DNA from: a virus
Reading direction: 5' to 3' (one strand)
Length of the DNA: 47,130 nucleotides
IMG/VR virus record: IMGVR_UViG_3300015171_000008
Coordinates: 1 to 47,130 of that record
Positions 748-20,059 of the stretch are shown here, piece by piece. Position numbers and translations under genes: made by a program. Below the pieces are notes generated by a model. The model did no database searches and was not told the DNA's origin. It saw only the letters and a list, made by a program, of their open reading frames with translations. How positions within the stretch are numbered: position 1 is the first letter of the stretch; each line of letters opens with the position of its first letter.

Positions 748-1926
748 TTAGTTCTGCGGCCCAGAGAGCGTCCAGCGCACGAGTTTGTTTTGATCCGCCG
801 TGTCGGTCGCGACCGTGACGGCGCACAGATAGAGATTTTGTCCCGGCGACGTATCCACATTCTTGTAGTCCCAGGTGATGCCCTGTAGCGCCGCATAGCT
901 GTTGGCATCGCCCGTCGTTACCGCAGGGGCAGCAGGCGTGATGGCGAACGGCGGGGCAATTAAGAAAGCGTCATCGGTATCGCTTCCCGAGAATGCCGAG
1001 TTATCAGTGCAAGTAGTCCCAGTCGGGTTTTTCTGCCAGATACGAACCACAAGCTGTCCAACAGAGGCGCCGGTTGATTTGTAGCCGATGTTGGTGAGGA
1101 TGCCGCTCCCGCCGTTGACACGAGCTAGGGCAATAGAGAACAAGCCCCCAACAGACGTACCGGCCGCATGAGACGAATTTGCTGGGGTGGCTGTAGCGAC
1201 GATGGCGCCACTGTCGTAACCGCCAGCAATGACGCGCGTGTTGCCAAGCAAATCCATGCTGGCAAAATCGAGGTTGCCGTTCGTTCGCGCAGCGGCCGTA
1301 GTCTCAACATACGCCATTCCAATAGCGCCAGTCTGACTACCGTAAAGGGCGTTTTTGGCCACTCCGATAGGATTGACAGAGAGCGCCCCACCAGCCGTCA
1401 CAGTTGCAGTATTGCCCCCCTGTACAATCGTAACATTGCCGCCACCCGAACCGCCTCCACCACCAGAACCAGAAGGCGTGCCAGTTCCACCAGAGACGTT
1501 AATTGTCGTTGTGCTAGATGCCGTAATACAAGCTACAGTATCAAACGCTCCGACCGTATAAGTAAAAAATCCACCAGGAGCAACTTGATCGTTTGACGTA
1601 GTTGCAGTGGTTGCACCAGTTCCAGGCTTACAAAAAGCCGCTACCGAACCTGTATTATACAAAACAGCAGTGCCGCCACTTGGCAGAGAAACACTGCTAG
1701 AAACACTAGAGACAGATATTGGCGTAGCGTATGCTGGCGTTGGTGCAAATGCAGCAGAAGTAAAAGAACCAGTCACAGGAAAAGGTGCAGTCTGACTAAC
1801 CGGAATACAATTTCTACCACTTGTATCTGTTATGCAAACTTTAACTGATATTTGAGCAAAAGCATTCTTATCAAGCGCAAAAAATGCGCAAAATGCCCAC
1901 ACTAATAATGCGAGTAAATAGCGCAT
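748..1926 (-). CDS. Secreted Gly/Thr-rich fibre-like protein
   Basis: The 392-residue product starts with a clear signal peptide: MRY, a hydrophobic core, then a NAFAQ cleavage site near residue 24. I preferred the ATG at 1926 to an upstream in-frame start because it places the signal peptide at the very N-terminus and has GGAA upstream. Two N-terminal Cys residues (VCIT, RNCIP) could form a disulfide. A Gly-Ser linker near residues 155-165 separates an N-terminal beta-rich part from a C-terminal part. The composition and position beside other fibre-like genes suggest an appendage or adhesin. I recognise no named family. Confidence 0.7.
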   Translation of the reverse strand: MRYLLALLVWAFCAFFALDKNAFAQISVKVCITDTSGRNCIPVSQTAPFPVTGSFTSAAFAPTPAYATPISVSSVSSSVSLPSGGTAVLYNTGSVAAFCKPGTGATTATTSNDQVAPGGFFTYTVGAFDTVACITASSTTTINVSGGTGTPSGSGGGGGSGGGNVTIVQGGNTATVTAGGALSVNPIGVAKNALYGSQTGAIGMAYVETTAAARTNGNLDFASMDLLGNTRVIAGGYDSGAIVATATPANSSHAAGTSVGGLFSIALARVNGGSGILTNIGYKSTGASVGQLVVRIWQKNPTGTTCTDNSAFSGSDTDDAFLIAPPFAITPAAPAVTTGDANSYAALQGITWDYKNVDTSPGQNLYLCAVTVATDTADQNKLVRWTLSGPQN

Positions 1927-1952
1927 GTTTATATTCCGATTCAAAATAAATA

Positions 1953-2402
1953 TTACTGGCAAGCCCAAACACCGGCCTTAGCCGAAAAGCAATCGTACGC
2001 GGTATGAGTTGCCAAAGTGGCCGAAGTTCCATTGTTAATAGTATCTTGCGTAGCGCTTACCGGATTATTTGTGACATTTGGATAAATAGTTAAAGTCGAT
2101 GCGCCATTATTGTAAAAACGAATAGAGACTCCCGGCAAAGCAAACGGGATTGAAATTCCAGTGCTTGCCGCAGTCGTGTCAATTTCAACAAATTGAAGAT
2201 TAGACGGAATGACGGTCGCTGTAGCCTGAGTGGTACCAGCCGCCGTGACACCGTTCGTAAAAGTATTGTTCTGACCTTGAGCCAGCCCTAGAACATAAGC
2301 CCCGTCGATTAGACGAAAGCCGGGCGTAGGAACCTGCCCGACTCCCCAGGCGATGCCAACGGCAGCAATCGACGCCAGAATACCGGCTAGAAGCTTTTTC
2401 AT
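1953..2402 (-). CDS. Small secreted beta-rich protein
   Basis: The product has 149 residues and begins MKKLLAGILASIAAVGIAWG, a strong Sec signal peptide, with an AAAGGA ribosome site before the ATG at 2402. The C-terminal half contains a segment around residues 90-150 (IRFYNNGASTLTIYPN, then DTINNG) like the short trimeric beta modules found in phage fibres and head fibres, and a Cys pair near the end (DCFSAKAGVWACQ). It lies between the O-antigen polymerase-like gene and another secreted fibre-like gene. The function is unknown; a virion or surface role is inferred. Confidence 0.65.
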   Translation of the reverse strand: MKKLLAGILASIAAVGIAWGVGQVPTPGFRLIDGAYVLGLAQGQNNTFTNGVTAAGTTQATATVIPSNLQFVEIDTTAASTGISIPFALPGVSIRFYNNGASTLTIYPNVTNNPVSATQDTINNGTSATLATHTAYDCFSAKAGVWACQ

Positions 2403-2403
2403 A

Positions 2404-2766
2404 TTAAGGAATCCTTTGTTGAGCCAATAAGGTTTTTACAAAAACATGATTTGGAGCTAAGTCATAAAGCTCTTTAAATTGTTTTGCCGCACCTTCGAAA
2501 TCATTTGCCGCTATCATTTGTCGAATCAAAATTATCATTAGGCTAGTTGAGTTTGGTTCGTAGTATTTGACAGCCAATAATACGTCTAAGTTATTCTGGA
2601 TATCTGCAACTTGCATAATTCCAGTTCTAAATCTAAAATCCCATGGAAACATCTTAAGCGCGAATTGTAATTTGCCTAAATCTTGTTCCAGCATTCCTTG
2701 CGTATGAATATATTCTGCCGCTCCAAAACACAAACTGAGCGTCATCCCAATTACGCAAGCAATCAT
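2404..2766 (-). CDS. C-terminal part of split O-antigen polymerase/ligase-like protein
   Basis: This frame begins at an ATG at 2766, inside the 3' end of the gene at 2654-3613, and encodes about 120 residues. It starts with a membrane helix (MIACVIGMTLSLCFGAAEYI), followed by a soluble part rich in short helices ending near AQQRIP. A last membrane helix followed by a helical, TPR-like tail is how Wzy/PglL-type proteins end. The longer open frame back to 2931 has an unlikely N-terminus (Arg- and Trp-rich) and is probably not translated. It is either a separately initiated subunit or, more likely, the shifted end of one ancestral protein. Confidence 0.55.
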   Translation of the reverse strand: MIACVIGMTLSLCFGAAEYIHTQGMLEQDLGKLQFALKMFPWDFRFRTGIMQVADIQNNLDVLLAVKYYEPNSTSLMIILIRQMIAANDFEGAAKQFKELYDLAPNHVFVKTLLAQQRIP

Positions 2767-3613
2767 AGAAACAAAGCGACGTAATAAATAAAGTTGTAGG
2801 CACATATAACGGAAAACCAAATAAACCCTCAATGAGAAACGCCAACACCACGTATTTAAGCGTCGATTTCGTAAATACTGTGCCCAATATAATCGCTGTG
2901 TAAAAGATAACTCCAAAAATCCCATAATCAAAAATTAATTCGAGCAAGTCATTATGAATGTGAATGATCGAATATGAATTATCTACTATATCGAAATAAT
3001 TTAAATATTCATTGCGGAATGAGTTAATTCCATGTCCTAGTAAATTAAGATGTGTTGTCGCAAAGGTCCAAAGTTCTAGGCGATCTTGAATGCTCGTACT
3101 TCTCAGCAAGAGGCTTGAGAATATTATCAATATAATAATTCCACAAAGCAGTAGCTTCCATTTGACGTTTAACTTTATCGCAATCATACCCACAATAAGC
3201 AAAGCGATCACCGAAGCGCGTTGCATCGGTAACAGCATTGCCGGAACCATTAGCGGCAGTAGATAATATAGGCGATAAACTAAGCATCCAACTATCACCA
3301 GTGCCGTTGCTTCGGCCAGTATGTTACCATTTATAAACAGTCCAGGAGGCGAATTAAATATTTGCACAACTGGACGGTATCCAAACCATTGAAATAAACA
3401 GAAAATGCTATTTATTCCAACACCTAAAGAACAAGCAATAAACAGGTGCTTAAATTGCAAATCAGCTTTAAAGTGTATCAGCAAGGGAACAAAAGCAAAC
3501 AATGAACACCATCTTAGAGTTGTAGCCGCACCTTCAACGTTTGGCCAGTATGCTGTGAATAGGACAAATGCTAACAAAAGCCATGGGCGGCACCAGTTAA
3601 AGATGCCGCCCAT
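2654..3613 (-). CDS. O-antigen polymerase/ligase (Wzy/WaaL/PglL)-like membrane protein, frameshifted at C-terminus
   Basis: The 319-residue product has about eight or nine hydrophobic segments. It carries the signature of the Wzy_C superfamily: an RLELWTFA...LLGHGINSF segment before a loop with HIHNDLLEL, the conserved His-Asn-Asp-x-x-Glu region of O-antigen polymerases and ligases. The frame is good to FPLYVPTTLFITSLCF near 2775. Beyond that its tail is Trp- and Arg-rich and atypical, while the +1 frame continues with the expected last membrane helix. Phage-encoded polymerases of this class (such as Wzy-beta of phage D3) alter host O-antigen and block superinfection. That role is inferred here. 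The gene sits among fibre genes. Confidence 0.7.
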   Translation of the reverse strand: MGGIFNWCRPWLLLAFVLFTAYWPNVEGAATTLRWCSLFAFVPLLIHFKADLQFKHLFIACSLGVGINSIFCLFQWFGYRPVVQIFNSPPGLFINGNILAEATALVIVGCLVYRLYYLLPLMVPAMLLPMQRASVIALLIVGMIAIKLNVKWKLLLCGIIILIIFSSLLLRSTSIQDRLELWTFATTHLNLLGHGINSFRNEYLNYFDIVDNSYSIIHIHNDLLELIFDYGIFGVIFYTAIILGTVFTKSTLKYVVLAFLIEGLFGFPLYVPTTLFITSLCFYDCLRNWDDAQFVFWSGRIYSYARNAGTRFRQITIRA

Positions 3614-3621
3614 TTAATCTA

Positions 3622-4959
3622 TTACGGTTCCGCCGACCATCCAATTACGCCAGTGCCAGCGCCAGAACCGACAAACTCCGATGCCTGACCGGCAGTAGCA
3701 GTAGTTTGAGAAGATAGCGCACCAGTCGCAGGAGTGTTGCTAACACCAGTGGTTACGAGAGTGCCGGGAGTGGTCTGAGTACCGGCAATGAGCAACTTAA
3801 ATCCTCCAATGGTGATAGGCGAAGTGATTGGAGTAATGCGCATTAGTTGCGGGAAACGATAGAGAATATTAACTTGATTGGTAGCACCGACAATAGCACT
3901 TGCGTAAATCGGAGTGCCCGCCGAACCATTCTCTTGAATAGTCCAATATCGCGCAAGCTGAAGATTCCAATCGTCAGCTAGGTTACGGCGAACGAACGGG
4001 CTAGGCGCCGTTGAAGTTCCGCCGCGATATTCAAGCTGCGCGTTACCAATTTCAAGATAATCGTTGGTTCCAGCAGTACCAACGCCAGTAAGGCAGATTT
4101 TAACGCCAACGCCTAGCGTCTGAGTAGTAGTTCCGGTGGCGTAATAAGGAATCTGCGCCGCAACGCTATAGCGCGCCCAGCTAGTTGATGCTGTGGTTAG
4201 AGTGTTAACGGCCTCAGTGTAATTGGTAATATTCTGAGTGCCGGTCAATGAGCTAGCAAAAATTCCGGTATTAGTGCCCTGACCATTAGCGGCGCCAGTC
4301 GTCACGTCAGTCGCAGTATGATAACCAATAACGAGATTCACACCGAGCGGTGAAAAGTTAGCGCCCTGTTGAAGCTCAACCGAAAAAATAGCCGTTCGAG
4401 TACCAGTTGACGCATTAATAAAGGGCTCTGATTCCGCATCTGGCAAAAGCTGACCAACGCAATATTGTCCAGTTGCAGTTTGATTAGCCACGCGCTGAAT
4501 GCGCATGGACGCCAAAGAACCAGGAGGCTGACTAGCTGCACCAGTTTGCTTCGAAACAGTCACAAGCGGTGCAGTAGTTCCACCATAAACATACCAACCA
4601 TCGGCGGTATAGATTGCCGTATTCAGAGAAAGCGAGGCAAAGCTAGTACCACGCTGCCAAAGATTCTGTCCAAAATCACCGCCAACAATACCGTTAATCT
4701 TGTTATAAAGTAGTGGAACCGGAATCTTACCAGATTGAATACCGCCAGCTTGCGCCGGATTGGTATCGGCAGGCACCGTTTCATTTCCAGTTAAAGCGGG
4801 ACCAGCCGGAATAGTAGACTGACAAACGTTGTTAACAGTGCTGGCGCAATAGCTAGGACCGCCAAGAATCGGCATGTCCGGTGCAAAAGTCTGAGCTAAA
4901 GCAGCAATTCCAGTAGCAGCAACCGTAGCAAATAAACCGATTGCAATTTTGCGTAACAT
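3622..4959 (-). CDS. Secreted tail-fibre/adhesin-like protein
   Basis: The 445-residue protein starts MLRKIAIGLFATVAATGIAALAQ, a classical signal peptide with an AALAQ cleavage site, behind an AAGGAT ribosome site. From about residue 90 it matches the layout of phage fibre C-termini with a carbohydrate-binding jelly roll: NLWQRGTSF and TADGWYVY near the start, a Ser/Thr-rich core, then LEIGNAQLEYRGG, PFVRR and LARYWTI. That last pattern occurs in many phage and prophage fibre tips. A receptor- or glycan-binding role follows from that layout. The signal peptide on such a protein is unusual. It starts the operon that continues into the O-antigen polymerase-like gene. Confidence 0.75.
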   Translation of the reverse strand: MLRKIAIGLFATVAATGIAALAQTFAPDMPILGGPSYCASTVNNVCQSTIPAGPALTGNETVPADTNPAQAGGIQSGKIPVPLLYNKINGIVGGDFGQNLWQRGTSFASLSLNTAIYTADGWYVYGGTTAPLVTVSKQTGAASQPPGSLASMRIQRVANQTATGQYCVGQLLPDAESEPFINASTGTRTAIFSVELQQGANFSPLGVNLVIGYHTATDVTTGAANGQGTNTGIFASSLTGTQNITNYTEAVNTLTTASTSWARYSVAAQIPYYATGTTTQTLGVGVKICLTGVGTAGTNDYLEIGNAQLEYRGGTSTAPSPFVRRNLADDWNLQLARYWTIQENGSAGTPIYASAIVGATNQVNILYRFPQLMRITPITSPITIGGFKLLIAGTQTTPGTLVTTGVSNTPATGALSSQTTATAGQASEFVGSGAGTGVIGWSAEP

Positions 4960-4980
4960 AATTTACATCCTTAAAATGAG

Positions 4981-5007
4981 GAAAATCTAATTCTTCGGCC
5001 GAAGAAT
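4981..5007 (-). terminator. Probable factor-independent terminator after small terminase
   Basis: Positions 4990-5007 form a perfect 18-base palindrome (ATTCTTCGG and its complement). On the minus strand it is followed by TAGATTTTC. It lies between the end of the terminase/small membrane peptide genes and the start of the secreted fibre gene at 4959. The T-run is short, so termination may be partial. Confidence 0.5.
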
Positions 5008-5009
5008 CT

Positions 5010-5078
5010 TTAGAACTTAGCGTAATAGATAGCAAAACATAGACTGATAAAAACGATAGTTAAGGCGATAAATGTCAT
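5010..5078 (-). CDS. 22-residue membrane peptide
   Basis: The ATG at 5078 overlaps the TGA of the small terminase gene as ATGA, a typical coupling arrangement. The 22-residue product is almost one hydrophobic helix (MTFIALTIVFISLCFAIYY, then AKF). It ends just before the palindrome at 4990-5007. Nothing more can be said about function. It could be a chance short frame, but the overlap and composition favour a real gene. Confidence 0.4.
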   Translation of the reverse strand: MTFIALTIVFISLCFAIYYAKF

Positions 5079-5704
5079 GACACCAATTTAATCTCAATAG
5101 GAACAACGTCTAACGGTTCCAAGTCGCTATCAATCTGTTCCACAACCTTAAGCTTGTTAACGTTCTGTTCGGGCGATGGAATTAAAACAAGCTCCATCAC
5201 ATTATTCTGAAATAGATTGTTGTTAGTCGAATTATCAATGTTGATTTTACCAGTGTAACCCAACACTTCAGCGTAAGCTTTTAAAGCTGCGATCCGATCT
5301 TTAGCTTCGTGAACGTGGAAAGCCTGCCCGTTTCGCGTAACTTTTTCATCTGCAAGTGCAAGCAGCCTAGCGGCTAACTCCGTCTTGTCAAGCGGCTTTT
5401 CTACTGCTTTGATGGATTTCAAATAGATATCGCGACTGGCCATCGCTATCGGGTCGGCCATCCAATGAGCCGATACCCACAATGCAGGCCCCGTCTGATC
5501 ATTAAAAATCTCTAGCCCTGCCTTGAATGCGTTGTCGCGATTAACCTCCCCAAGCTTCGCTAATGCGATGCCAAAAGCCTTTTTCTTTTCTTCGTCAGTC
5601 GCGAATGCCGGTAGGATTTCAGCCTGGGGAGGTGCTGGATTGGCGAACGTACCCCACGCAGGGCGTTCAACTTCGAAGAATGTATTCAGTCTAGTCCAAC
5701 TCAT
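5075..5704 (-). CDS. Terminase small subunit-like protein
   Basis: The 209-residue protein has the layout of phage small terminase subunits. There is a helical N-terminal half, then a segment around residues 130-160 (KDRIAALKAYAEVLGYTGK) followed by a polar linker rich in Asn (NIDNSTNNNL), as seen where the DNA-binding/oligomer core meets the C-terminal tail. The product would recognise the packaging site and hand DNA to the large subunit. No large subunit is visible next to it; the fibre island follows instead. The ribosome site is weak. It is preceded by the strong terminator at 5721-5760, so it needs its own promoter or readthrough. Confidence 0.65.
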   Translation of the reverse strand: MSWTRLNTFFEVERPAWGTFANPAPPQAEILPAFATDEEKKKAFGIALAKLGEVNRDNAFKAGLEIFNDQTGPALWVSAHWMADPIAMASRDIYLKSIKAVEKPLDKTELAARLLALADEKVTRNGQAFHVHEAKDRIAALKAYAEVLGYTGKINIDNSTNNNLFQNNVMELVLIPSPEQNVNKLKVVEQIDSDLEPLDVVPIEIKLVS

Positions 5705-5720
5705 TAACCGGCATTACCAC

Positions 5721-5760
5721 AAATAAAAACCCGGTGCTAGGGGGGTTATAGCACCGGGTT
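5721..5760 (-). terminator. Strong factor-independent terminator
   Basis: On the minus strand, positions 5749-5760 and 5728-5739 form a perfect 12-bp stem (AACCCGGTGCTA and its complement) with a 9-base loop, followed by TTTTTATTTG. It follows the gene at 5792-6325 and separates the early small-gene block from the terminase/fibre block. Confidence 0.9.
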
Positions 5761-5791
5761 CCGAGGCAGCCCAACTCGCCGCATAGCTTTA

Positions 5792-6325
5792 TCAGGCTTC
5801 TCTAACTACTAACACACCATCGCTTGGTGACTTCTGACCTTTAGCATACTCAAAGTCCTTTGTCACCGGATACGCTGCGAAATGACGCGAATAAATCAAC
5901 TTAGGACGCAACACCGCACTCGCACTGTAAATGGAATTGCCAGCGCCATCAACTTCCGGCTTGTTGTTAATGAAATTACGGCTTTTAATGTGGACTTCTT
6001 CCTGTACCTCATGACCATCAATGTCATGTTCCTCAATCGAGTAATAATTACGTGCTCGAAAGATTTCTTGCCGCATATATTCGAGCGTATCATTCGCTGT
6101 GTCAGCATTGGCAACAAAAAAGCCTTCGCCAACTGCCAACTCGTCAAATGGATAACGCGAGAAAAAACCTTTATCATCCGGTCCAATGGCATCTTTTACG
6201 CGAATAAACTTTGCAGGCTCAATCTTCGGCTTGTCTTTTTGAACATCGACAACTTCTCTCTGCTTTTCTTGACCTAGCTCTTGCGCGCTAAAACGAGCAT
6301 TGTCAGTAACCGTTTGCGTTTCCAT
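5792..6325 (-). CDS. Phage protein with YPF-x-x-L-x-V-G-x-x-FFV motif
   Basis: The 177-residue product shares a motif around residues 58-72 (RYPFDELAVGEGFFVANAD) with the protein at 7492-8148 (KYPFEKMEVGQSFFVPVSA). The two are therefore paralogues or share a domain. The motif is familiar from small, abundant early phage proteins of unsettled function. An AGGA site precedes the ATG at 6325. The N-terminal third is charged and probably disordered. The strong terminator at 5721-5760 follows the gene. Confidence 0.65.
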   Translation of the reverse strand: METQTVTDNARFSAQELGQEKQREVVDVQKDKPKIEPAKFIRVKDAIGPDDKGFFSRYPFDELAVGEGFFVANADTANDTLEYMRQEIFRARNYYSIEEHDIDGHEVQEEVHIKSRNFINNKPEVDGAGNSIYSASAVLRPKLIYSRHFAAYPVTKDFEYAKGQKSPSDGVLVVREA

Positions 6326-6915: not shown

Positions 6916-6992
6916 TGGTGCGCTCGATCAGATTCGAACTGATAAACAAGAAATTTTAAGTTTCTTTGCGTTACCGATTAGCATACGAGCGC
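6916..6992 (-). tRNA. tRNA with UAA anticodon (reads UUA, Leu)
   Basis: A full cloverleaf is visible on the minus strand. The acceptor stem is GCGCTCG/CGAGCGC (6986-6992 and 6920-6926), then A73 and an encoded CCA (6916-6918). The D arm has three good pairs and a GG-containing loop. The anticodon arm is AGAAA/TTTCT with loop CTTAAAA, giving anticodon UAA. The variable loop has 5 bases, and the T arm ATCAG/CTGAT has loop TTCGAAT. A UAA anticodon reads the leucine codon UUA, but bacterial leucine tRNAs normally have a long variable arm, which this one lacks. Charging identity is therefore uncertain. Confidence 0.85.
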
Positions 6993-7491: not shown

Positions 7492-8148
7492 TCAAGCAGT
7501 CCGAGCAATAACAGCACCATTAGCCGGTGCAGTCCAACCACCATACGACTTGCCAGCTTCAACAGGCCGGATTTCAAAGTTGCGAGTAAACTTGCGAACG
7601 TCAACCTGTTTTGTCTCCATGATCTTGTTTCCAGCCGCATCCAACTCCAACTTATTACCCTTGCCGCGCTTCGCACGAGTGACAGACTTCTGGCCAACCA
7701 CTTCGGCAAAGCGAAGCTTGGCACTCGACACAGTGCTGCCAAGCGTCTTTACCGGATCAGGATGCTTCGCACTAACCGGAACAAAGAAGCTCTGACCAAC
7801 CTCCATCTTTTCGAACGGATACTTAGTCGGCGCTCCACCGCCACGCAAACCCGCACCACGCTTAGACGCAGGCAACTCAATGCCACTAATTAACTCATAG
7901 TTAGAGGCCGATTCGGCAACCGGAGCGGCATTACCATTCGCCAGATAGGCCGCGCCAGCCTCATTAATTCGGACCTGGGCGGTGCCCGTGGCCGGATCAA
8001 CAGGCGCACAATCAATCAACGCAGGCTGCAAACCCAAGCCAGCTTCCATTGCCTGGGCATGATTTACATGCGTCACCTGACCACTGGCAATAGCCGCAAG
8101 CAATTCACGATTTACAGCACTTTCCACAACTTTACCCTTCTTAGCCAT
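7492..8148 (-). CDS. Larger member of the YPF-motif paralogue pair
   Basis: The 218-residue protein starts behind AGGAAG. The N-terminal half is Ala-rich. The middle has KYPFEKMEVGQSFFVPVSA, matching the protein at 5792-6325. A basic segment follows (SVTRAKRGKGNK), then an RKFTRNFEIRPVEAG strand region. The basic stretch would suit nucleic-acid binding, but that is inference. Close relatives are common in phage early regions without a known role. Confidence 0.65.
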   Translation of the reverse strand: MAKKGKVVESAVNRELLAAIASGQVTHVNHAQAMEAGLGLQPALIDCAPVDPATGTAQVRINEAGAAYLANGNAAPVAESASNYELISGIELPASKRGAGLRGGGAPTKYPFEKMEVGQSFFVPVSAKHPDPVKTLGSTVSSAKLRFAEVVGQKSVTRAKRGKGNKLELDAAGNKIMETKQVDVRKFTRNFEIRPVEAGKSYGGWTAPANGAVIARTA

Positions 8149-9620: not shown

Positions 9621-10379
9621 TTAATTCAACGGTGCTAAATCAAGCCATTGAACACCAGGAACATTCATCTCAATCAAAATCTGCACCGTATCTTCGGCAA
9701 ACTCAGATAGAAACTTGTCCCGAGCAGCATGCGCGTCAGCGGCATGAGCAGCAGCATGAGCGTCAGCAGCATGAGCAGCACGAGCAGCATGAGTAGCAGC
9801 ATGAGCAGCAGCATGAGCGTCAGCAGCATGGGCAGCAGCATGAGCAGCATCAGCAGCATGAGCAGCATGAGTAGCAGCAGCAGTATGAGCAGCAGCATGA
9901 GCGTCAGCGGCATCAGCAGTATTTTTCGCTTGTAACGCCGCTTGTCTAGTTCCCTCTATTTCGCACAAATTAGCAGCTTCAAGCAAAGCTGCTTTATGAT
10001 CAATATTTTTACAAATTGACGCTGCCGCTCGTAGTGCAAAGGGAACGGCTTTTTTAATAGCAAGGCTGGCGACACTTTTTGCAAATTTAACATTGTCAAA
10101 AAATCCAGCACTGCCGAGTTGAATTAGAGCCAGCCGACGCATTCCGTTAGCTCTGACTTGATTTGATGACCATTTGGCGTCATTTAATCTAATTTTAAAT
10201 GATCGCAAAACTGGCGCCACGCAAACAGGGTTATCTCCATGCGGCAAGCCAAATGCATAGCAAACAGCAGCCTCGACACACATTTCACCCGGCTTATTAT
10301 TTCCAAGCCCGGCAACAAGACCACAATTCACCAATTCGAGAACTTTCTCAGCATGTTGCCTAGTGACTTCAATTGACAT
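9621..10379 (-). CDS. Conserved phage/bacterial protein with Ala-His-Asp repeat tail
   Basis: The 252-residue product starts at the ATG at 10379 with GGAGAG upstream; the frame is open further but lacks a better start. The N-terminal 150 residues (HAEKVLELVNCGLVAGLG, CVEAAVCYAFGLPHG, LNDAKWSSNQVRANGMRRLA) form a conserved helical domain seen in many proteobacterial and phage proteins of unknown function. Residues 165-240 are built from AHAADAHAAA-type units. A short unique tail follows. Ala-rich repeats of this kind also occur in putative immunity proteins, but I make no assignment. Confidence 0.65.
   Translation of the reverse strand: MSIEVTRQHAEKVLELVNCGLVAGLGNNKPGEMCVEAAVCYAFGLPHGDNPVCVAPVLRSFKIRLNDAKWSSNQVRANGMRRLALIQLGSAGFFDNVKFAKSVASLAIKKAVPFALRAAASICKNIDHKAALLEAANLCEIEGTRQAALQAKNTADAADAHAAAHTAAATHAAHAADAAHAAAHAADAHAAAHAATHAARAAHAADAHAAAHAADAHAARDKFLSEFAEDTVQILIEMNVPGVQWLDLAPLN
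9727..9935. repeat. Degenerate repeats encoding Ala-His-Asp tract
   Basis: About 200 bp are made of near-identical GCAGCATGAGC and GCGTCAGCAGCATGAGC units on the plus strand, coding for Ala-, His- and Asp-rich repeats on the minus strand. Copy number is likely to vary between isolates and assemblies. Confidence 0.85.
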
Positions 10380-10446
10380 TTTTTCTCTCCATTCGACGTT
10401 GAAGTTGACGACTTTAATTGGACCGGTGGCCCTGTCAACTATTATT

Positions 10447-11283
10447 TCACAACTCACAAGCCTTCCGTATCATATCCCAGGTTTCAACCGTCATTCTAAT
10501 TGTGATGACGCTATCATCTTCATCATCTATCTCAGTCGTCACAGCGTCAAATGCTGCTTTAACTGCCGCAACCAGTCCCAACGAACGTTTATTGGCTGGT
10601 GGCTTGGCTTCTGGTTCTGGTGAAGCCTCAACATGCCTTGGCAATGCCCGCTGACTTCCCTCCGCTTCGGCAACTGCCACTGCATCCTGAAGCACCCGGG
10701 TTGCCTTGGCGCCGTTGTGTTCCTTTAGCGTTGCCATTGCCATTGAAGGCGACACCTTGCCTTCTACCACCATTTGCTTAATCGGTTCCGGCATCGTTAG
10801 CAAGTCGAGAATTTGACTTATCCGCGCTGCGCTAATACCAGCCTTCTTAGCGATATCGCCTTGCTGCCATCCCATATCAACAAGCCGCTTATAGACTCTG
10901 GCTTGCTCCATTTGAGAGAACGGTTTACCGCTATTCCGAATGATCTGGCTGAATAGCTTATCGGCATCATTTGAATATCTATCTTCCAGGATCACTGGAA
11001 CAGTCTTAATTTCAGCGCCACGACTGATTGCCAGCATGATCGCTCGCAATCGGCATTCACCATCCGACAGCCAAGCTTCACCGTTCTCCCATGAAACGGT
11101 TAGTGGCTGTCTAACGCCAATCTCGGCAATTGACAGTGCCAATTCCTCAACGTGTTGAAGATTGGTCGGTTCGTTGAAGTCGCGACCATTCCAGTTAGCT
11201 TTAACCTTGATCTTTGCAGGATTGATTTTATGAAGATCGGAGCGACCTTCAGCGATTGATGCAATGCCGGTGCTTTTGCTCAT
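10447..11283 (-). CDS. ParB-like DNA-binding protein
   Basis: The 278-residue protein starts at 11283, where ATGA overlaps the stop of the upstream gene. Residues 40-75 carry the ParB/Spo0J N-terminal fold (HVEELALSIAEIGVRQPLTV, then SDGECRLRAI in place of the usual G-E-R-R/H). Residues 120-165 form the helix-turn-helix (QGDIAKKAGISAARISQILD). The C-terminal 50 residues are helical and acidic. No ParA is nearby, so it may regulate transcription or bind phage DNA rather than partition a plasmid-like prophage. Confidence 0.8.
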   Translation of the reverse strand: MSKSTGIASIAEGRSDLHKINPAKIKVKANWNGRDFNEPTNLQHVEELALSIAEIGVRQPLTVSWENGEAWLSDGECRLRAIMLAISRGAEIKTVPVILEDRYSNDADKLFSQIIRNSGKPFSQMEQARVYKRLVDMGWQQGDIAKKAGISAARISQILDLLTMPEPIKQMVVEGKVSPSMAMATLKEHNGAKATRVLQDAVAVAEAEGSQRALPRHVEASPEPEAKPPANKRSLGLVAAVKAAFDAVTTEIDDEDDSVITIRMTVETWDMIRKACEL

Positions 11284-19007: not shown

Positions 19008-19691
19008 ATGCAACAATCTGATCTAAGGCCCGCTAAAGTATTTGCCCAACAGTTTGGGGTTAAAGCTATTACATTCGGTGGCCCTGGTAGCGGTAAAACG
19101 CCCATTATTAACACTTGCCCGCGTCCATTATTATTAGCCACAGAACCCGGACTGCTATCAATGCGCGGCAGCAATGTGCCCACATATTTAGGATTCGACA
19201 CCAAATCGATTGATGACTTCTTTGCTTGGTTTTTTAGTTCAAATGAAACTAAAAATTTTGATACGTTGGCTATTGACAGTTCAAGCCAAATGGCGGACAC
19301 GTATTTGCAAGGCGCATTAAGCGGTAAAAGCAAAAGTGGCAATAAAATGCACGGATTGGCAGCTTACGGCGAAATGGCAACCGAAACAATAAAGCACCTT
19401 CGTCCTCTTTATTATACTCGTGAAAAGCATGTCTATATGATCGCCAAGGAAACAGTTAGCGATAGTGGATTTAAAAAGCCGTATTGGCCTGGACAACAAT
19501 TAAACGCTGACGTTCCATTCCTCTATGATGAAATCCTTCACCTAGGAATCCATAACGTGCCGAGTATGGGACAAGTTAAAAGCTTCCAATGTCAAGGATC
19601 AATTGATGTTATGGCGCGTGATCGCACGGGGAGCTTATCGAACTATGAGCCGCCGGATTTTGGCGCGTTAATCAAGAAATGTATGAGTTAA
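19008..19691 (+). CDS. Sak4-like RecA-fold ATPase (recombination)
   Basis: The 227-residue protein has a Walker A motif (FGGPGSGKTP, residues 25-34), a Walker B-like strand with TLAIDSSSQMADT, and a compact RecA core with no DNA-binding C-terminal domain. This matches the Sak4/AAA_24 ATPases of phage single-strand annealing systems, which work with an SSB. The adjoining ssDNA-binding protein and nuclease genes support that. The acting residues are not otherwise altered. The next gene starts 2 bases after its stop. Confidence 0.75.
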   Translation: MQQSDLRPAKVFAQQFGVKAITFGGPGSGKTPIINTCPRPLLLATEPGLLSMRGSNVPTYLGFDTKSIDDFFAWFFSSNETKNFDTLAIDSSSQMADTYLQGALSGKSKSGNKMHGLAAYGEMATETIKHLRPLYYTREKHVYMIAKETVSDSGFKKPYWPGQQLNADVPFLYDEILHLGIHNVPSMGQVKSFQCQGSIDVMARDRTGSLSNYEPPDFGALIKKCMS

Positions 19692-19693
19692 AC

Positions 19694-20059
19694 ATGCCAG
19701 ACGATTATGTATTTCCAAGCACTCCTAGTGAGAAAGTTATTCACACTAGTAGCGGATCACAACTCACGTATGATAAACTAGCAAAGGAAAGACCAATGAA
19801 CGATAGGAAAGAAACGGAAGAAAGAATGGAATTGCCGAAAGCGTTAAAGCTGGAAATCACAGGCTATCGCAAACTGAATGAGGAAGAAACCACCTTAATT
19901 AACTTGCGCAAGAATGAAGCAATTCAGGTAGGAGAAATTATCACCAATCTTGAAACACGAACCGATATTGACAAACGCTGGCTCGCCATCGCCAAAACCG
20001 ATTTACAAAAGGGCTTCATGGCTCTTGTGCGAAGTATCGCTAAACCCGAAACCTTCTAA
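19694..20059 (+). CDS. acb2: Acb2/Tad1 hairpin-family anti-CBASS protein
   Basis: The last 70 residues carry the Acb2 hairpin signature: TGYRKLNEEETTLINL, then DKRWLAIAKTDLQKGFMALV with ending RSIAKPETF. Acb2 proteins from Pseudomonas phages and T4 Vs.4 bind cyclic oligonucleotide signals as hexameric sponges and block CBASS and related defences. The first 35 codons (MPDDYVFPSTPSEKVIHTSS) are extra compared with those proteins. A second start at 19796 with AAAGGAAAG upstream would give the usual 87-residue length, so which start is used is open. Confidence 0.8.
   Translation: MPDDYVFPSTPSEKVIHTSSGSQLTYDKLAKERPMNDRKETEERMELPKALKLEITGYRKLNEEETTLINLRKNEAIQVGEIITNLETRTDIDKRWLAIAKTDLQKGFMALVRSIAKPETF

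Follow-up and report, generated by a model that had tools for sequence, protein, structure and literature searches.

A WaaL-fold membrane protein gene of environmental phages and the probable gene for a TPR-like membrane protein that overlaps its 3' end

Organization of the locus

The window analyzed here is the whole of virus record IMGVR_UViG_3300015171_000008, 47,130 bases from a podovirus-like phage whose coat protein is of the P22 type and whose primase is Kakheti25-like; no integrase match was found in this record. On its minus strand, within an island of fiber-type genes, lie two open reading frames, A and B, that overlap in different frames (Table 1). An earlier note on this DNA had described a phage-borne Wzy_C polymerase/ligase-like gene in a fiber-type island, and this is borne out by ORF A, which carries the motif HIHNDLLE and matches PF04932. 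The same note placed a TPR-like tail in the +1 frame, and that frame does indeed hold ORF B, which is open to its stop at 2404 and has TPR-like matches.

Table 1. Coordinates of the A/B locus and the adjoining genes in the window
Feature	Positions	Strand	Remarks
Upstream fiber-type island gene, signal-peptide-like N-terminus	3622..4959	-	Homologues adjoin A in several relatives
ORF A, Wzy_C/WaaL-fold polytopic membrane protein, 319 aa, complete	2654..3613	-	Pfam PF04932; AF2 model
A Arg132 codon, first conserved Arg	3218..3220	-	Corresponds to WaaL Arg191 of 7tpg; near-invariant in 25 A proteins
A Arg178 codon, second conserved Arg	3080..3082	-	Corresponds to WaaL Arg265 of 7tpg; near-invariant in 25 A proteins
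A His220 codon, HND motif	2954..2956	-	Corresponds to His of AHND in 7tpg; invariant in 25 A proteins
GAGGG resembling a Shine-Dalgarno site, 5 nt upstream of B start	2826..2830	-	Duplex -6.1 kcal/mol
ORF B, 138 aa, +1 frame of A, most likely start TTG 2820-2818	2404..2820	-	Kept in 25 loci; own-frame selection
A/B overlap, 167 nt	2654..2820	-	Both frames constrained only near end of last A helix and start of B helix
B membrane helix, about residues 16-35	2716..2775	-	From sequence; within helix 2-45 of model
B TPR-like helical repeats, about residues 48-134	2419..2679	-	Profile matches and model
Next gene	1953..2402	-	ATG 1 nt past B stop in the window

The genes of the locus are tightly packed. 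A starts 8 nt past the stop of the upstream gene. At the other end, the start of the next gene overlaps the B stop as ATGA in four relatives (L077, L078, L108 and L117), and the spacing between the two genes is 0 to 20 nt in the window, L125, L081, L115 and L101. Because the next gene starts at the B stop, B, and not A, is the gene that ends there.

The fiber-type genes of the window (748-4959, minus strand) have what appear by eye to be Sec-like signal peptides (for example, MLRKIAIGLFATVAATGIAALAQ), which is unusual for virion proteins. Similar islands are present in L077, L078, L080-L082 and L108, and some of the homologous genes have no signal peptide. The signal-peptide-like starts suggest that the products of this island may be exported proteins and not tail fibers. 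Elsewhere in the window, a protein with an Acb2/Tad1 hairpin domain (19679-20059, plus strand; PF24729, E 2.3e-13) is a candidate counter-defense factor that would sequester cyclic nucleotides. Two DUF7303 paralogues lie close together at 5792-6325 and 7492-8148 (minus strand), and the sole tRNA found is a tRNA-Leu with anticodon taa (6916-6992, minus strand). The protein at 9621-10457 (minus strand) has a single match, to a Plasmodium histidine-rich model and below cut-off, which probably reflects low-complexity composition.

Gene A is predicted to encode a complete WaaL-fold protein

By hmmscan, the window A protein matches PF04932 with an E-value of 5.4e-7 and 29.9 bits, just short of the 31.7-bit cut-off, and a genome search covering A and its neighbors gave 33.5 bits. 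The family match is general: 21 of the 25 A members described below match PF04932, the best with an E-value of 1.8e-10. In the AlphaFold2 model of A (pLDDT 81), residues 5-289 align to residues 10-402 of the 403-residue WaaL chain in 7tpg (Z 14.5, rmsd 4.5, 259 residues aligned). FtsW/RodA structures score lower (Z about 6 to 9.3), and unrelated structures do not exceed a Z of 5. A shares with WaaL a predicted fold over near-whole length together with the Arg, Arg and His positions, although the two proteins differ widely in sequence, at only 17% identity.

WaaL was reached only by this structure comparison and by phmmer from a bacterial relative. Foldseek alone gave weak matches for the A model, of which the best was FtsW (E 0.096); a sequence search of the PDB with an A query (A3) yielded no relevant match, and NCBIfam no useful one. 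The residue equivalences in Table 1 were drawn via a bacterial relative, using the L136-7tpg alignment. We take the two arginines and the histidine that are conserved in A and WaaL to be catalytic active-site residues.

The earlier note assigned the final membrane helix that it expected to the +1 frame. This helix is not missing from A, because the model spans the full WaaL fold and bacterial relatives end after the same last helix. In summary, the modeled structure indicates that A alone is a complete Wzy_C/WaaL-fold (SEDS-like) membrane protein.

Gene B is predicted to encode a membrane-anchored TPR protein

B has a basic N-terminus, one membrane helix and a TPR-like domain. Its AlphaFold2 model (pLDDT 94.5) has a long N-terminal helix (residues 2-45) followed by TPR-like hairpins. 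A profile of B matches many TPR chains, both designed and natural, with a best E-value of 5e-27, and the top natural and designed Foldseek matches to the model are again TPR proteins, with modest E-values; Pfam TPR matches from single B sequences are mostly under cut-off. In one locus, L076, B has been cut down to the membrane helix and a short tail, just before 1249 (minus strand), which points to the helix as the core of B. Neither Wzy_C_2 (PF11846) nor PglL_A domains were found by Pfam search at E 0.1 in 25 A and 25 B proteins.

The A/B pair is conserved across environmental phages

Direct searches with the window A or B found no relative in IMG/VR or among 50,697 named phages, and the A proteins of L082 and L109 had no relative among named phages. 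Relatives were instead reached from the capsid protein, which led to 74 related viral loci that were searched for Wzy_C; an alignment of A then led to 32 loci. Twenty-five distinct loci have a readable 3' end: the window, L077-L082, L099-L102, L105, L106, L108-L111, L115-L117, L120 and L122-L125.

In every one of these 25 loci, window included, B occupies the +1 frame of A; L076, with its truncated B, makes a 26th. The two genes overlap in 24 of the 25. In the other, L079, B has its own ATG 97 nt past the A stop, and in L116 and L120 the B stop falls 8 nt before that of A. L077, which comes from another metagenome contig, shows the same overlap as the window, with an A protein that is 49% identical. 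Of 25 records tested, all 12 with A also have B, and B is missing from all 13 without A.

The cassette is found in phages of at least two different capsid lineages, and also in phages without the window capsid protein. The L109 record looks T7-like, with internal virion protein, head-tail adaptor and major head families, and the L122 record has tail and baseplate-type matches. Searches of bacterial genomes, one of the two without a positive control, found only distant Wzy_C proteins without B. A fused, single-frame A-B homologue was not seen. Directly after the A/B cassette of L100 lies a transposon-associated ORF (4742-5818, plus strand) that appears TnpB/OrfB-like by eye.

Selection acts on A and then on B

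We looked at the codon positions at which related loci differ. In nine pairs, substitutions fall at A third positions up to the end of the last A helix and at B third positions beyond it, a switch from A-frame to B-frame selection with a chi-square of 98 (p 6e-22). Between the two zones lie about six codons that are slow at every position, as expected at the switch, because there both proteins need the same bases. Pooled pN/pS values from six pairs are 0.37 in upstream A, 0.23 in A beneath the first 17 codons of B and 1.05 in those 17 codons of B, then 1.40 in the A tail and 0.41 in the B helix and the start of the TPR part. In the window/L077 pair, the A tail and B are about equally conserved. 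The length of the A tail is what chance permits given the B protein. Upstream, every member has at least 21 open codons in the B frame, and in 10 of 24 the opening exceeds the shuffled expectation (P <0.05). Because these 25 loci are related to one another, they do not provide independent tests, and the numbers given here are best read as guides.

Taking the sequences and the model together, B is probably a separate TPR-like membrane protein, under purifying selection in its own frame. The view that the frames together make up a single protein is not confirmed.

B probably starts inside A

The start of B in the window is most likely a UUG codon inside A, at 2820-2818, after the GAGGG. The ATG at 2767-2769, at which the earlier note thought translation might restart, is present, but the TTG upstream of it, with GAGGG at 2830-2826, is the likelier start. 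The duplex energy of this GAGGG (-6.1 kcal/mol) compares with -6.8 to +1.9 kcal/mol for other start sites tested in the same phage. For the best combination of Shine-Dalgarno (SD) site and start codon in the B frame, the mean is -5.1 kcal/mol; when A is shuffled synonymously, it is -1.6 kcal/mol.

The recurrent site is a TTG 17 codons ahead of the B helix, with SD site and TTG together there in eight members. Seven GC-rich relatives (L102, L106, L109, L110, L111, L115 and L122) have GGAGG-N6-TTG at the same place; in these seven, the TT of the TTG belongs to a Phe codon written TTT, even though TTT accounts for just 10-38% of their Phe codons and is rare in some. L125 has GGAGG ahead of a TTG nearer the B helix. 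Overall, about nine members, the window among them, have a clear SD site with TTG, which is absent or weak in others: no B-frame start with an SD match was found in L082, L100 and L105, and only a weak one in L078. Because the SD site and TTG fall in codons of the conserved VE[AG]-x-F[AG]FP of A, part of the signal could be incidental.

Alternative explanations

PglL-type O-oligosaccharyltransferases consist of a Wzy_C enzyme with an extra periplasmic helical C-terminal part. These fused enzymes resemble, in outline, a Wzy_C part with a TPR part behind it, which would suit a once-fused polymerase gene that an indel has broken in the window phage. However, the same layout recurs in 24 other loci, and both parts are under purifying selection; no fused homologue came to light; and A is complete by comparison with WaaL. 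A decayed or split gene, as the earlier note had considered, is therefore very improbable, and a lesion at the 2766-2775 junction is not borne out. A sequencing or assembly error is less probable still. The window is a single metagenome contig, but L077, from another, and 23 more loci share the overlap, and with 24 loci from many metagenomes alike, an indel error in the reads is effectively excluded. Nor is there any sign of phase variation, another suggestion of the note: the junction has no repeat tract, and the arrangement is constant over 25 loci. Reinitiation after the A stop is unlikely because the B start precedes that stop by 167 nt and because B terminates before A in two relatives.

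Programmed +1 ribosomal frameshifting, by which a slip near the end of the last A helix would give an A-B fusion beside a shorter A, deserves more weight. The +1 phase is constant; the A tail and the first 17 codons of B are both unconstrained, as a frame switch predicts; and some members have no clear B start. Because the 17 N-terminal residues of B are unconstrained, the switch in selection is also expected from a +1 frameshift. In L079 (2050-2160, plus strand), A ends in CCC TGA, the sort of context at which +1 shifts occur, and the B frame stays open across the A stop from a point 14 nt ahead of its end, although this conjunction may be coincidental. Against such a mechanism, the junction has no shared slippery motif: the best columns reach 20/23, and where the window has TGT TTC TAT, L080 has GTG GCG GGT. 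The codons from -1 to +4 are constrained in both frames, and a fusion would put the last helix of A directly onto the helix of B, with no loop. Moreover, the B frame is already kept open ahead of any such site, with an SD site and TTG at codon -17 in the eight members noted above. We therefore consider frameshifting, although the main rival, unlikely. The explanation that we favor as probable is that the locus is a conserved overlapping gene pair, rather than a split or decayed gene, and that A and B form a two-gene cassette whose proteins would be made separately, with B begun internally.

Comparison with known systems

There are precedents for this layout. In lambda Rz/Rz1 and the MS2 lysis gene L, too, a membrane-targeted protein is read in the +1 frame of a different gene from an internal start, and the initiation codon of MS2 L is UUG. 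The nested arrangement is alike, but the proteins and their function are unrelated to those of A and B. We know of no overlapping gene for WaaL. The PglL type differs from A/B in that here the parts are separate chains in different frames and Wzy_C_2 (PF11846) is not matched. No gene that overlaps one for an O-antigen polymerase turned up in a literature search.

Among phage polymerases, Wzy of Salmonella phage epsilon15 is reported to have a Wzy_C domain, as A does, and the portion of the source that covers it does not mention an overlapping TPR partner (PMC4815439). Phage D3 of Pseudomonas offers the closest functional model, and is comparable by analogy. The relevant parts of the published accounts describe its Iap as a 31-aa transmembrane peptide that is made with the phage Wzy and mimics the second helix of Wzz, and state that Wzy-beta and Iap together convert the O-antigen (PMC12004945, PMC4815439, PMC4652898). 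D3 infection is also described there as making the host resistant to other phages (PMC4815439, PMC12004945). Iap is without a TPR domain, and we found no overlap reported for it, whereas here the partner is overprinted on the 3' end of the enzyme.

Proposed function of the cassette

In the model that we propose, gene A would yield a complete WaaL-fold glycan polymerase or ligase in the inner membrane, which we infer from the modeled fold to act on a lipid-linked glycan. Gene B would start within A, in the +1 frame, at a UUG whose SD site lies in A codons, and would produce a type II membrane protein with a short basic cytoplasmic N-terminus, one helix and a periplasmic TPR-like domain. Anatomy and selection both support the idea that A and B are separate chains from one message. 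B may lie beside A in the membrane, where it would either help A, in substrate handling or chain length, or disarm the host polymerase. By altering the surface glycan of the host during infection, the cassette might, for example, exclude competing phages.

In the second of these roles, B would act like Iap and inhibit the host polymerase or its chain-length regulator, and A would stand in for the host enzyme. This is a question within the overlapping-pair explanation, since the gene layout is the same and only the target of B differs. The D3 peptide, made with its phage Wzy, and the B of L076, little more than a membrane helix, are consistent with it; but most B proteins have a conserved TPR domain, which Iap does not, and we rate this role as somewhat doubtful. 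A little less doubtful, but still tentative and to our minds likelier wrong than right, is the broader possibility that the overlapping pair is a mobile cassette in which a WaaL-fold polymerase has an obligate, overprinted TPR second subunit, an undescribed two-subunit type that rewrites host polysaccharide across unrelated phages.

Phage-encoded O-antigen polymerases are already known. To our knowledge, however, a dedicated TPR membrane partner that is always overprinted on the polymerase, and is carried across phages with different capsids, has not been described. Annotation pipelines would call such a locus a frameshifted pseudogene or drop B, and a conserved gene would stay hidden within another. 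The A/B pair allows a direct test of the ways in which phages replace or redirect the polysaccharide polymerases of their hosts, and it bears on the control of Wzy/WaaL-fold enzymes by single-helix partners.
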